DNA from: a bacterium
GTDB taxonomy: Bacteria; JAJRZV01
Direction of reading: 5' to 3'
Length of the DNA: 10,461 nt
NCBI GenBank assembly: GCA_024275095.1
Contig: JAJRZV010000104.1
Location: 1 to 10,461 of the forward strand
Part shown: one piece after another, positions 3,125-9,123 of the stretch
Layout of the letters: every line of letters starts with the position of its first letter
How positions within the stretch are numbered: the first letter of the stretch is position 1
Made by a program: the position numbers and the translations under genes
The notes under the pieces: generated by a model
The model's database searches: none
Told to the model about the DNA's origin: nothing
Seen by the model: the letters and a program-made list of their open reading frames with translations, nothing else

Positions 3125-6100
3125 ATGACGTATTCTGACACCAGCACGGGTATAATAAACACCCACACCATGTGGAGCAGACAAAAAGACTTATTAAAGC
3201 GTGCAGTACTGGTTACCGCCTCAGCGGGTGCAGGCAAAACCGCACAGCTGACGCAGCGGTATATCCACATTTTAAACCACTCGGAAGACCCGGAATACTT
3301 CACCTGCATTCTCGCAATTACCTTTACAAATAAAGCTGCCAAGCAAATGAAAGAACGAATTCTCTCCGAGCTCATCACACGTGCCGTCGAAAACCATGAT
3401 GAAAAAGCGCTGAAAATTCTTGAATCCATGCTTCGTAATTCACGTCGGTTTCGTGTAAGCACCATTGACTCTTTTGTGCGTTCCTTATGCCTATCCTCCG
3501 CAGCATTCCTCGAGTTCCCTCCTGAATTCGACGTAGAGCTTAACCCGGATGAAACAATCAACTATGCACTCGATCTCCTATTGTCTGACCGCAGCGAAGT
3601 GAAAAGCACCGAGGAAGTAGTGGATACATGTTTGGAAATGGGAATTACACTGGGACTGAACCCCATCCCTTCACTCAAGCGCACCATTTCACGCCTTATC
3701 GTGGATTCTTACAGCAAGGTGGCAAAAGACACACACTATGGCAATGCTGTAGAAATAAAAAAAATCCAAGACGCACTGCGTGACGCATTGAAAAAACTCA
3801 TACAAAGATATGGGCAGTTAAAACCCGAAGAGAAAGACAATGCTGAAAAGCTTTTACAGTATCTGCAAAATGCCAGTGCACGTCAACTTATCAACGAGAA
3901 GGCCTTTAAACCTCTGCAGCGGCGTTCAAAATCGAAACCGAGAATGATTATTCGCAAAAACGACGGGGAACTTCAACAGCTTTACGCCGAGGTGACTCAC
4001 GTTCAGAGAGATTTTGTTGATATTTATTACAGTAATCTTTCAGGGGTATTTTCTAAATTTGTAAAGAAAACCTTATATCTCTCTCATAAGCATTTGAAAC
4101 GGAAGGGGCGTGTGCTTCTGGCAGATCTTTATTTACAACTTCTTGAACATCTGGAGAAAGATGAGGTGCCCACACTTTTTTTCTACTTAGGAGAAAAACT
4201 TGAACACTATCTTATAGATGAATTCCAAGATACAAATCCTGAACAATGGGCCGTGCTCCAGCCGCTGATAGAAACCGCCATCAGTCAGAATGCACGTGCA
4301 TCGTTCTTCGCAGTGGGTGACAGGAAACAGGCAATCTATCGTTTTCGTGGAGGTGATAGCAGAATTTTCGACCACGTAATCCGTGAATGTTTCCAATCAG
4401 AACGAATCCACCACGATACGAACTCGCTGAGAACCAATTACCGCAGTCTTCCGGCCATTCTCAATTTTGTGGCTGATGTTTTCCAGCCGACAAATTTAAC
4501 CACCGGGCTCAGAGAGGTGCTTCTTTCCCAAAATAGGGAAAAACCTCTTCTTGAGGAAGTTATCGAAGAGGTACAAAAGCTCTGGGCTTTTGACACCACG
4601 GTCAAACAAAAGCCGGCAGAAAAGAACGAGAAGGCTGAAGGGTTTGTAAAAGTCGAAGACATAGAAAATGCAGAAGATAATCTCGACGAGGTGGTTAAGG
4701 AAACACTTTTAAAACGTGTTCATGAGCTTTTAGCACGAAACTGGGCACTGGCTGATATATCAATACTGGTCAGAGACAATCAGCAGGTACAGAAAGTAAC
4801 AGGCTGGCTGAAGGACCATGGTATCTCTGTTGCTTCAGAAATCACATGGGACGTGCGCACACACGCAACAATGCGTGAGATTATTGCATTGTTGCGCTTT
4901 CTCAATCATCCGCCTGATGATACTTCATTTGCAGGATTTATTATGGGAGAGCTTTTTCTCAGCCTTGCAGGGTTAAGACGGGAAGAGGTGGAAGCATTCC
5001 TTCAGGAGCACCGCCTTGAAAAGAAGTCCGATGGAAAACATCTCTACCAGGCATTTCAAAATAAATTTCCTGAGGAATGGGAAACTCACATTGCGCCGTT
5101 TTTCCGGATGGTGGGATTTCGTACGCCTTATGAGCTACTGGTTGCTTTGGCCAAACACTACCGTGAGTTTTTCGAGAAAAGGCCAGAAGACGGCGTGTTC
5201 CTCTATCACCTCCTGGAAACGGCTGCAGAGGCTGAGGCCAATGGTAATACAGGCATGGACGATTTCATGAGATGGCTGGACAGTGCACCGCAGGAAACAT
5301 TTCTTCTCAAGCTACCAGATTATGGCGATGCTGTACAGGTACTCACTGTTCACAAAGCCAAGGGACTGGCATTCCCTGTTGTTATTTATCCATTCGGCTA
5401 TATTACACCCCGTGCACTCCGCCTCCCGGAAGTGTTTGTGAGCGATGAGGGACACATTATCATGGGACTTTCCAGAGAATCGGCAGCAAAAGGACTAAAG
5501 ATGAAAACCTTGGTTATAAAAGAAATAGCATCCAACCTCATCGACGAACTGAATCTTCTCTACGTGGCCTTTACACGGGCTCAATACGAATTACACGTGT
5601 TCTGTCTTAAACCAAAGCATTCGCCATGGATACCCTTACCCCTGCCCAAAAATCTGCGCAACCTCACGTACGGGGTAGAAAGTAGCTCTTGCGTTACAAA
5701 AACTGTTTCACCCGGTGAAGCAGGCGAACTTGTTATTGCTCCCGTACCATTCGCGGGTGAGGGGCTGCGACGACTCGTCAGACGTCGTGGGGATGTAACC
5801 ATTGACATAGAAGAACGCCGGAGACTCCAGCGCGGCAGGCTCATACACCGAGCCCTGGCCTATGTAGAGGTGGTACCAGAACATGCATGGGAAGAAATCA
5901 TTCACCAGGCAGTGGAGAAAGCAGCTTTTCAGGAAAAGTTGCACGAATTATCCAGAGAAATTGCGAGAGAACTCATCACTTTTTTTCAGGAACCTGAAAA
6001 TCGTGCTCTTATTCAGGGTACACCTGTAATGGTAGAAGCAGATTTGTGTGACAGTGAAGGCAATATTTACCGACCCGATCGAGTCCAAGAACGCGATGGT

Positions 6101-6271
6101 ATTATGGAAGTTATCGAATTCAAAACAGGGGAACATCCATCCGAAGAACATGCAGAGCAGGTGAAAAGTTATATTCATCTTCTGCAGTCGATATTCCAAG
6201 AAGCCCGCTTCAGGGGATACGTTGCATATATTGACCTTCAACAGGTGGAAACGATACCGTGGCAGAACTAA
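3125..6271 (+). CDS. addA: AddA-like UvrD-family helicase with C-terminal PD-(D/E)XK nuclease
   Basis: Motor and nuclease subunit of an AddAB (RecBCD-like) complex that resects double-strand breaks for RecA-dependent repair. All SF1A helicase motifs are present: Walker A ASAGAGKT (residues 32-39), motif Ia TFTNKAAKQM (66-75), Walker B DEFQD (365-369), motif III GDRKQAIYRFRGGD (398-411), NYR (438-440), motif V TVHKAKG (741-747) and motif VI YVAFTRAQ (813-820). The C-terminal nuclease shows His908 in RGRLIHRAL, Asp985 in YRPDRV, EFK (998-1000) and Gln1012, so it looks catalytically intact. At 1048 residues it is of the compact type. The ATG at 3125 lies three bases after the preceding stop without a clear Shine-Dalgarno. 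Met16 (ATG at 3170) is an alternative start, since the first 15 residues precede the conserved part. It overlaps addB by 13 nt. Confidence 0.9.
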   Translation: MTYSDTSTGIINTHTMWSRQKDLLKRAVLVTASAGAGKTAQLTQRYIHILNHSEDPEYFTCILAITFTNKAAKQMKERILSELITRAVENHDEKALKILESMLRNSRRFRVSTIDSFVRSLCLSSAAFLEFPPEFDVELNPDETINYALDLLLSDRSEVKSTEEVVDTCLEMGITLGLNPIPSLKRTISRLIVDSYSKVAKDTHYGNAVEIKKIQDALRDALKKLIQRYGQLKPEEKDNAEKLLQYLQNASARQLINEKAFKPLQRRSKSKPRMIIRKNDGELQQLYAEVTHVQRDFVDIYYSNLSGVFSKFVKKTLYLSHKHLKRKGRVLLADLYLQLLEHLEKDEVPTLFFYLGEKLEHYLIDEFQDTNPEQWAVLQPLIETAISQNARASFFAVGDRKQAIYRFRGGDSRIFDHVIRECFQSERIHHDTNSLRTNYRSLPAILNFVADVFQPTNLTTGLREVLLSQNREKPLLEEVIEEVQKLWAFDTTVKQKPAEKNEKAEGFVKVEDIENAEDNLDEVVKETLLKRVHELLARNWALADISILVRDNQQVQKVTGWLKDHGISVASEITWDVRTHATMREIIALLRFLNHPPDDTSFAGFIMGELFLSLAGLRREEVEAFLQEHRLEKKSDGKHLYQAFQNKFPEEWETHIAPFFRMVGFRTPYELLVALAKHYREFFEKRPEDGVFLYHLLETAAEAEANGNTGMDDFMRWLDSAPQETFLLKLPDYGDAVQVLTVHKAKGLAFPVVIYPFGYITPRALRLPEVFVSDEGHIIMGLSRESAAKGLKMKTLVIKEIASNLIDELNLLYVAFTRAQYELHVFCLKPKHSPWIPLPLPKNLRNLTYGVESSSCVTKTVSPGEAGELVIAPVPFAGEGLRRLVRRRGDVTIDIEERRRLQRGRLIHRALAYVEVVPEHAWEEIIHQAVEKAAFQEKLHELSREIARELITFFQEPENRALIQGTPVMVEADLCDSEGNIYRPDRVQERDGIMEVIEFKTGEHPSEEHAEQVKSYIHLLQSIFQEARFRGYVAYIDLQQVETIPWQN
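6243..6261 (+). promoter_or_regulatory. Ribosome binding site and GTG start of addB
   Basis: AGGTGG (6243-6248) lies ten bases before GTG 6259-6261, within the last codons of addA. No in-frame ATG occurs until residue 61, which is inside conserved sequence, so this site decides the start. Location inside addA suggests translational coupling of the two subunits. Confidence 0.65.
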
Positions 6272-9072
6272 TTCATTTGACGCCAGAGGAAGACGCACCT
6301 GAATGTTTAGCCCGTATCCTTGCTGCTGAGGGCAAGCGGGACCTGCGTCATACATGGGTAATATTCCCTGGCAGACGTCCCTTCTACTATCTCAACCGAC
6401 ATCTTGCACAACTGCTGAACGGAGCCTTCCTGCCACCAATGGAATTCACAGAAGACGAGTTCATTGAACATCTTGCACTATCCACCGGCGCAATAGAAGG
6501 CCAGCGCATAGAAACCCTGGATGCCCTCTCATTCCTTCATCAAAGCCTTAATGAGCTCTCTGGCAAGGGCCTTCTCAATCCGGGCGATTTTCAAACCTTC
6601 CTTAGATGGGGTTTTCGATTTATAAACTTTTTCGACGAACTGGAAGAACACCTCATCACCGTTAATGCTCACGCTCTCAAAAATCTGGAAGCTCAGGTTT
6701 TGTCCTTCGAAGACCGCATTCCGCGCTCCATTCAGAGTGTTCTTTCACAGATCTCTTTACTCATGCCACGGTTGCGCGATCGCCTTCTTCAAGCCCGGTA
6801 CTATACACGCGGCATGGCATACCGGGCAGCAACGGAAGGAATTAAGAGTGCCAGACCACCGGACGTAAAAAAAATTTTCTGGTACATACCTTATGCACTA
6901 TCACCATCGGAAGAATATATATTGAAGCAGCTGTGGGAAGGTCCACCCGAAATCGTGGTTATATACCATGAGCCCGGCCACCTGGGAGTCGTAAAAGAAC
7001 GCCCCAATGTGGTAAGTGTGCTGGAGAGATTAAAAGGAAAGTCACTCCCTGAAGCTCCTGTAAAAACCACCCCGCTACGCGTTTACCGGGCATTCAGCAC
7101 TCACAGCGAAATCCTCACTCTGCGAGAGGTGTTGAGAGAAGAAATAGACAAAAATCCTGCACGCACAGCAATTGTAATGCTGCGTACCGACGTGCTCCCG
7201 GTACTCCTGTCCGAGGTTCTTGAAGGGGTCTCTGTTGAATACAACATCACCATGGGATATCCCATTGCCCACTTTCCACCTTATTCTCTTATAATGGCTT
7301 TTATTAAGGTTTTAGAAACACGCCAGGCCGGTCGCTTCTACATACCGGCACTGTTCAATTTCCTCAAACATCCTTACATTAAAAACTTGCCCCTCGAAAA
7401 AGGAGGCTCTTTCAGGGCATTCGTGCATGCTCTGGAAAACGTATTTATCAGAAAAAACCTGGCTTTTGCACGGCCCGAAACGTTAAAAGACGCAGGAGCA
7501 AAAGCAAGCAGTGAAATCAACGTGGAAGAGCAAGAAGCACTGGAAATTTACCAGTATCTGCTCGGGCTTCTTATGCACGAAAAGGAACAGGAGGACGCTC
7601 TTGCTCATACGGCGGAGACGTTGGAAAGGCTCTTTCAGTTTCTCCTGACAAAAGGTGAAGGCAAAACCCATCCCTTTGCCGAAGAGTTCATTGGACGGGT
7701 GCTTGACCTTTTCCAGCGCATACGCCTCAGTTTTATGGGCAACCTTCCCCTGCGTCAAGAAGACAGGTTTTTTCTGCTTGCACACCTGCTCCAGAGCGAA
7801 AGAGTGCCATTTTCCGGCATACCGCTGGCAGGTCTCCAGGTGCTGGGCCTTCTGGAGACACGGGGCATCGCTTTTAAAAATGTGTATATCACAGACGTTA
7901 ATGAAGGGATACTTCCAACAGCAGGAGAAGGAGGCTGGCTGCCTCCGTCAATAAGGAAAGTTCTGAAGCTTCCTCTGCCAGAAGATACAGAAAAACTTCA
8001 GCGTTTCTACTTCGCACGTCTTGTCAATGGTGCAGACCAGGTAAATATCTTCTACGTAGATGCTCCAGATAAAATGCGCAGTCCCTTTGTTGAAGAAATG
8101 ATTCTTACACGCAAACTCGCCGGAATAGAAGTGAAAGAAAAAGGTGTTCTGTTCTCCACGTCAACCACATCCTCTCCCAGAGAAAGTACCGCGTTCAAAA
8201 AGACATCCGCTGTTCTTACAGCGCTTAAAAACATCCAGTTTCATCCCACAGCGCTGGATACCTACATGAAGTGTCCAGCGCGTTTCTACTTCCGATACCT
8301 GCTCAAGCTGGAAGAGGCCGACACCATTGAGGAAGATGTTGAGGCACGAGATGTGGGTAATATTGTACACGAAGCGCTTAGAACTGTATTCGAACCATTT
8401 GTGAATAAAGGATTCGTAACTCCCGAAGACATCGAAAAACGACGTTCCGTTTTACCGGTTATTGTGCGTGAGGCAATGAACCGCGAAGGTTTGGGCCCCA
8501 CTGACGAGGACGCTTCCGCTGTACGCGAAATTATCTATCACACACTACTGCAATACCTCAACAGGTATCTGGAGATAGAAAAGGAAAATGCTGAAAATAA
8601 AGGAATAAAAATTATAGCACTGGAGAAAAACATAGAAGTGTCTTTTCCACTGGATGCGAACGGGAATGCAGTGCCAGTGGTAGGTCGGGTGGATAGGATT
8701 GACTTCTTTGATGGAAAGGTAAGAATCATTGATTACAAGACCGGTGGCTCGGTGGACACACCAAAACGGAAGGGACTGAAAGCCCCCGCCAATCGGGAAG
8801 AAGCAAAACATATCATCAAATCCTTCCAACTGCCCCTTTACCTCTACTTGGGACGCTGCAAGGAATACTTTACCGACTACAACCAGGCCGATGCCGGTGT
8901 CATACTTATCAAGAATGTATTCAAAAAACCACGCGAGGTATTAAAAAATGTATTTTCTTCATCGTCAAAACCTTCAGAGATAATGGAGAATGTTTTTATA
9001 CCTGCCATGCGGCTTCTCATAAAAGAAATAATTGATGAAAGCAATCCTTTTATTCCGGACTCCTCTGACTAG
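6259..9072 (+). CDS. addB: AddB-like nuclease/inactive helicase subunit, ending at an amber codon inside its iron-sulfur motif region
   Basis: Second subunit of the AddAB end-resection complex. The 937-residue protein has a helicase-like but inactive N-terminal part: the segment VIFPGRRPFYYLNRHLA (residues 34-50) stands where a Walker A would be and has no GKT. ITDVNEGILP (544-553) is typical of AddB. The C-terminal PD-(D/E)XK nuclease has Cys672 (YMKCPARFYFRYLL), His704, GRVDRIDF (809-816), IIDYKTGG (823-830) and Gln857, so the catalytic residues look intact. The start is GTG at 6259, inside the end of addA, with AGGTGG ten bases upstream; this agrees with where the homologous region begins. 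The frame ends at TAG just after NPFIPDSSD, the point at which AddB proteins normally continue into a three-cysteine 4Fe-4S motif. Those cysteines are encoded in frame beyond the stop (see 9070-9123). The truncated product keeps only the first cluster ligand. Confidence 0.88.
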   Translation: MAELIHLTPEEDAPECLARILAAEGKRDLRHTWVIFPGRRPFYYLNRHLAQLLNGAFLPPMEFTEDEFIEHLALSTGAIEGQRIETLDALSFLHQSLNELSGKGLLNPGDFQTFLRWGFRFINFFDELEEHLITVNAHALKNLEAQVLSFEDRIPRSIQSVLSQISLLMPRLRDRLLQARYYTRGMAYRAATEGIKSARPPDVKKIFWYIPYALSPSEEYILKQLWEGPPEIVVIYHEPGHLGVVKERPNVVSVLERLKGKSLPEAPVKTTPLRVYRAFSTHSEILTLREVLREEIDKNPARTAIVMLRTDVLPVLLSEVLEGVSVEYNITMGYPIAHFPPYSLIMAFIKVLETRQAGRFYIPALFNFLKHPYIKNLPLEKGGSFRAFVHALENVFIRKNLAFARPETLKDAGAKASSEINVEEQEALEIYQYLLGLLMHEKEQEDALAHTAETLERLFQFLLTKGEGKTHPFAEEFIGRVLDLFQRIRLSFMGNLPLRQEDRFFLLAHLLQSERVPFSGIPLAGLQVLGLLETRGIAFKNVYITDVNEGILPTAGEGGWLPPSIRKVLKLPLPEDTEKLQRFYFARLVNGADQVNIFYVDAPDKMRSPFVEEMILTRKLAGIEVKEKGVLFSTSTTSSPRESTAFKKTSAVLTALKNIQFHPTALDTYMKCPARFYFRYLLKLEEADTIEEDVEARDVGNIVHEALRTVFEPFVNKGFVTPEDIEKRRSVLPVIVREAMNREGLGPTDEDASAVREIIYHTLLQYLNRYLEIEKENAENKGIKIIALEKNIEVSFPLDANGNAVPVVGRVDRIDFFDGKVRIIDYKTGGSVDTPKRKGLKAPANREEAKHIIKSFQLPLYLYLGRCKEYFTDYNQADAGVILIKNVFKKPREVLKNVFSSSSKPSEIMENVFIPAMRLLIKEIIDESNPFIPDSSD

Positions 9073-9123
9073 AGATACTGCGATCACTGTCCCTACCCCG
9101 CCCTGTGTCGCAGGCCCTATTGA
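9070..9123 (+). other. In-frame amber codon followed by 16-codon extension carrying the AddB 4Fe-4S motif
   Basis: Seen directly: TAG at 9070-9072 is followed in the addB frame by codons for RYCDHCPYPALCRRPY and then TGA (9121-9123). Cysteine codons are at 9079, 9088 and 9106, spaced C-x2-C-x5-C. Known of the family: AddB and several Cas4-like PD-(D/E)XK nucleases bind a 4Fe-4S cluster with one cysteine before the nuclease core (Cys672 here) and three in a C-terminal C-x2-C-x5-C cluster. Inferred: the ancestral gene read through position 938, and the amber either is decoded by a suppressor or special tRNA, is a recent nonsense mutation, or is a base-calling error. One substitution would restore a Lys, Glu, Gln, Tyr, Ser, Leu or Trp codon. 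The full-length product would be 954 residues. Confidence 0.85.

Follow-up and report, generated by a model that had tools for sequence, protein, structure and literature searches.

The window analyzed here, a stretch of 10,461 nucleotides from a bacterial draft genome (G000; 2.45 Mb in 136 contigs, 97% complete), raises the question of what a TAG codon means when it closes the frame of a recombination nuclease gene, addB, three codons ahead of the first cysteine of its C-terminal motif. Taken at face value, this stop would point to a recombination nuclease with a switchable iron-sulfur (Fe-S) cluster or to a new use of UAG. A sequence-only reading of the window had offered both, as two AddB products or as an amino acid inserted at UAG, and had named a very recent mutation or a read error as the simple alternative.

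The addB locus and the sequence beyond its stop

The addB frame overlaps that of its upstream neighbor addA, and past the TAG it stays open for 16 codons, encoding RYCDHCPYPALCRRPY, before a TGA is reached (Table 1), just as had been described. All four Fe-S cysteines lie in one frame, the last three of them beyond the TAG, and the PDDEXK_1 profile matches the read-through AddB over residues 663-951 (E 1.6e-34), spanning the TAG and reaching the end of the profile (247/247). Elsewhere in the window, positions 1-1838 take in the C-terminal portion of a glycerol-3-phosphate dehydrogenase that resembles GlpA and bears a BFD-type [2Fe-2S] domain and, after it, a flavoprotein that may be GlpB.

Table 1. 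Features of the addB locus (positions in the window) and conserved genes of G000 that carry an in-frame stop
Feature	Position	Strand	Stop	Basis
addA (UvrD-like helicase, C-terminal nuclease domain)	3125..6271	+		ORF; Pfam UvrD-helicase, UvrD_C, PDDEXK_1
addB frame as read, 937 aa, GTG start	6259..9072	+	TAG	ORF; PDDEXK_1; homologue alignment
Codon of Cys672, the first of the four cysteine ligands of the Fe-S staple	8272..8274	+		Cys in 75/81 aligned AddBs
In-frame stop in a variable column, mostly Glu in homologues	9070..9072	+	TAG	sequence; residue tally
Continuation with C-x2-C-x5-C; Cys codons at 9079, 9088, 9106	9073..9120	+		frame, PDDEXK_1, alignments
Expected natural stop, 4 residues past the last Cys	9121..9123	+	TGA	sequence; homologue ends
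M16 peptidase			TAG	one Pfam domain spans stop
Aldehyde:ferredoxin oxidoreductase (AOR)			TAG	one Pfam domain spans stop
LeuA			TAG	one Pfam domain spans stop
RF2 (prfB)			TAA	one Pfam domain spans stop
[NiFe]-hydrogenase small subunit			TAA	one Pfam domain spans stop
DnaE			TAA	one Pfam domain spans stop
NadB			TAA	one Pfam domain spans stop
Methyltransferase/glycosyltransferase			TAA	one Pfam domain spans stop
Enolase-superfamily protein			TAA	stop between its two domains
TPR/cNMP-binding protein			TAA	weak domain match
TPR/zinc-ribbon protein (probable case)			TGA	stop in a repeat; other copy has Gly

The cysteines C672, C941, C944, and C950 are invariant between the query and five AddBs of 22-32% identity. 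This conservation was further examined in an alignment of 81 sequences (the query and 80 named homologues), in which the tail cysteines are retained in most members (C941 73/81, C944 73/81, C950 68/81; C672 as in Table 1) and the catalytic residues H704, E789, D812, D825, and K827 are identical in all 81, in agreement with the earlier statement that Cys672 and the catalytic residues of the nuclease are intact. The spacing from an upstream Phe to the first tail cysteine is the same as in the homologue L003. The motif could be parsed by pattern in 48 homologues, all of which (48/48) reach it without a stop and end 1-11 residues after the last cysteine, compared with four in the query. By simple arithmetic, three cysteine codons would fall at these exact places by chance with a probability of about (2/64)^3, or ~3e-5, which bears out the earlier judgment that a chance match in a short tail is very unlikely. 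Together, the homologue alignment, the spacing, and this low chance argue that the tail after the TAG is the genuine end of AddB, with its Fe-S motif.

The assignment to AddB, likewise proposed in the sequence-only reading, is upheld by the PD-(D/E)XK nuclease domain with its catalytic residues and by the pairing with addA. The lineage-specific NCBIfam models score far below their cut-offs (TIGR02786, addB_alphas, 73 versus 486 bits; TIGR02773, addB_Gpos, 48 versus 904 bits), and the domain, the neighbor, and the alignment suggest a deep-branching AddB outside both. The query resembles the AddB of AddAB, a member of the iron-staple PD-(D/E)XK family and a relative of Cas4 (PMC3466216), in its addA neighbor, its helicase-like N-terminal part, its RecB-type nuclease residues, and its Cys672 and C-terminal C-x2-C-x5-C, and differs from it in the TAG placed three codons ahead of the first tail cysteine. 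The nearest AddBs are only ~30-34% identical (for example, L218 and L219 of Desantisbacteria), and G000 is the sole genome of its phylum in the comparison set. Of 48 highly conserved columns, five differ in the query AddB, where the median is 1; these five deviations are of mixed type, and G-to-T on the coding strand accounts for none of them.

Amber decoding and the residue at the stop

The residue found in homologues at the position of the stop, codon 938, had been proposed as a check together with its state in close relatives. The first part could be answered: the column is variable, with Glu the commonest residue (20/73 homologues) and Lys next (11), and a simpler tally of the residue three positions ahead of the first cysteine gives Glu in 16/48. 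For the second part, single-protein scans of genome contigs and viral contigs returned no close relative of the addB product. Since the column is variable and neither catalytic nor a ligand, a special amino acid is not called for at this site.

Specific recoding of the amber codon, by pyrrolysine or by a suppressor tRNA, would yield one AddB form with the cluster and one lacking it, and the intact, homologous tail speaks for it. We nevertheless consider it extremely unlikely in view of the decoding machinery. Among the 43 tRNA genes detected in G000 with the Rfam model, all of which were passed through ARAGORN, none carries a CUA or UUA anticodon; the set is incomplete (tRNA-Ile, tRNA-Asn, and one tRNA-Ala are missing), which makes the absence of a suppressor strong but not absolute evidence. 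A search of G000 for PylS with PF01409 gave one strong PheS-like match over the full length and a second, short fragment match, but no PylS. Without PylS and without a CUA anticodon among the 43 tRNAs, G000 was rejected as a pyrrolysine-decoding organism. RF1 is detected at 506 bits, and the 698 ORFs in 843 kb of G000 end in TGA (372), TAA (260), or TAG (66); with 66/698 ORFs ending in it, TAG is therefore a normal terminator in G000, and a UAG-reassigned code was likewise discarded. Amber recoding would, moreover, leave the TAA interruptions of this genome aside. The proposals of dual products and of UAG decoding are thus not borne out.

In-frame stops across G000 and in control genomes

A recoding call that rests on a single window of draft sequence needs a genome-wide census of in-frame stops. 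Stops flanked on either side by coding sequence were scanned for in 843 kb of sampled stretches, about a third of G000, and ten further conserved genes were found with a single in-frame stop (TAA in seven, TAG in three), in addition to a probable TGA case (Table 1). A single Pfam domain spans the stop in AddB and in eight of these ten. The interruptions lie at L061:9675(-), L117:4575, L114:3284(-), L095:8711, L083:17629, L095:1991(-), L116:10974, L093:5555(-), L089:7890, L115:2517(-), and L084:4007(-). Stops at L092, L115:4429, and L096 were rejected as natural gene ends, and one at L104:18808 was excluded for want of family support. Other conserved genes with an in-frame TAG, which the sequence-only reading had suggested looking for, do therefore exist, but they are accompanied by the seven with TAA; with TAA, TAG, and probably TGA all present, no single reassignment accounts for the stops.

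Two of the interrupted genes are of particular weight. DnaE and RF2 were each detected once in G000, and both are interrupted; among the 29 genomes searched, the main DnaE is interrupted by a stop in G000 alone. The TAA in RF2, noticed while RF1 and RF2 were being checked, lies beside the normal CTTTGA frameshift site of this gene, which is itself a known device (PMC12421855).

The same scan was applied to three control genomes (G019, G025, and G041; 740 kb), with natural ends and interrupted genes sorted by eye, and gave one clear case: none in 302 kb of G019, one in 107 kb of G025 (NusG, with TAA), and at most one possible case in 331 kb of the low-coverage G041. The NusG stop (L179:5678) falls in the conserved C-terminal domain. 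The rate of interrupted genes is clearly higher in G000 than in the controls, and something sets G000 apart. Other draft genomes have contig coverages of 1.8 to 5 in their named records, so drafts of low coverage are common in the genome collection, yet G019 is clean at ~5-fold coverage.

The lesions were further characterized by the residues that homologues carry at the stops. Glu is found in the hydrogenase, AOR, and bacterial M16 proteins, and Arg, Lys, Glu, or Gln at the DnaE site; for RF2 and NadB, the homologues shown give no decisive residue, and the LeuA match stops short of the site. Where homologues are informative, the stop thus appears usually to replace Glu. A Glu codon becomes TAA or TAG, and a Gly codon TGA, by one G-to-T change each; a repeated G-to-T change fits the lesion pattern, although this is suggestive only. 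In DnaE, the codons 3' of the stop (L095) read YCFNKSH where YGFNKSH is expected, a single example of a G-to-T type change that places Cys at a mostly conserved Gly and is the only Cys at this site among the 29 genomes. The invariant columns of RpoC and DnaE across the 29 genomes show no excess of missense changes, with few informative columns and hence low power. The G000 scan contained no frameshifted genes, which rules out indel-prone sequencing as the source.

Lost cluster, tolerated stops, or consensus error

AddBs without the cluster do exist in nature, which bears on whether the TAG is a real and very recent nonsense mutation, by which the sampled strain would make a shortened AddB that lacks the Fe-S staple, with its loss under way. 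Of the 78 homologues that end naturally, 67 possess all four cysteines; five keep Cys672 and the first two tail cysteines and stop ahead of the third; five have lost all three tail cysteines and carry Asn or Asp at Cys672; and one retains Cys672 but breaks off further upstream, probably through a frameshift. The five AddBs that lost every cysteine (L238, L244, and L246 of Omnitrophota; L257 and L296 of Flavobacteriaceae) probably represent a concerted natural loss of the staple, judging from their aligned sequences. The five that retain the first cysteine and the C-x2-C pair and end before the third tail cysteine (L251, L254, L258, L279, and L288) belong to Flavobacteriales and related Bacteroidia.

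Homologues that end at this site without the motif, raised in the sequence-only reading as a possible objection, were therefore found, and the query frame likewise ends ahead of the cysteines. The objection does not carry over to the query, since in these AddBs the first cysteine is gone as well and no motif follows the stop. The query, with Cys672 retained and its tail undecayed, is therefore not an established cluster-less AddB. The Fe-S staple is considered essential for AddB integrity (PMC3466216), and comparable losses through the stops in dnaE and prfB could not be tolerated. We regard a recent mutation as unlikely.

A general tolerance of nonsense codons, in which UAA, UAG, and UGA are all frequently read through by leaky termination or near-cognate tRNAs and stops accumulate, would account for the many genes that are interrupted but otherwise intact in coding sequence, at a rate above that of the controls; readthrough would indeed be required if the dnaE and prfB stops were real in the cell. 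Conserved bacterial genes with in-frame stops under purifying selection have been described, and the stops attributed to readthrough (Belinky et al. 2021; PMC7918605). The query shares with those cases a single in-frame stop with the coding frame kept beyond it, but they were argued from conservation between genomes, whereas the comparison set has no close relative of G000, and G000 is hit in essential genes too. Against such tolerance, the genes for RF1 and RF2 were both found, a suppressor anticodon was not, the AddB stop (TAG followed by A) lacks a recognized readthrough context, and all three stops end genes as usual. On balance, we judge general nonsense tolerance very unlikely. The chance is smaller still that G000 truly carries single in-frame UAA, UAG, and UGA codons in many conserved genes, essential ones included (among them AddB, DnaE, RF2, and the hydrogenase), and lives by leaky readthrough without a dedicated suppressor tRNA.

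The reading that we consider probable is an ordinary four-cysteine AddB with a nonsense substitution in its draft consensus, most likely introduced by an error of sequencing or assembly. It is favored because the dnaE and prfB stops would be unbearable for a living cell without suppression, because at least ten other conserved genes of G000 are broken alike, and because the five motif-less homologues lost Cys672 and the query kept it. The simple alternative named at the outset is thus the one that gains from the TAA, TAG, and probable TGA stops in other conserved genes, and we infer that these stops are most likely consensus errors rather than mutations of the organism. The excess of stops in G000 over the controls counts against the error reading, and a real mutational or physiological cause would be the less likely explanation.

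Under the consensus-error reading, the living cell would have an AddAB helicase-nuclease with an ordinary iron-staple AddB. The consensus would carry a single-base nonsense substitution three codons ahead of the motif, one among many scattered over G000, for which consensus error in sequencing or assembly would be the simplest source. In the cell, the site would hold a sense codon (homologues have mostly Glu), addB would be read straight through, and translation would be normal. If the stops were instead true in the reads, G000 would argue strongly for nonsense tolerance throughout the genome.
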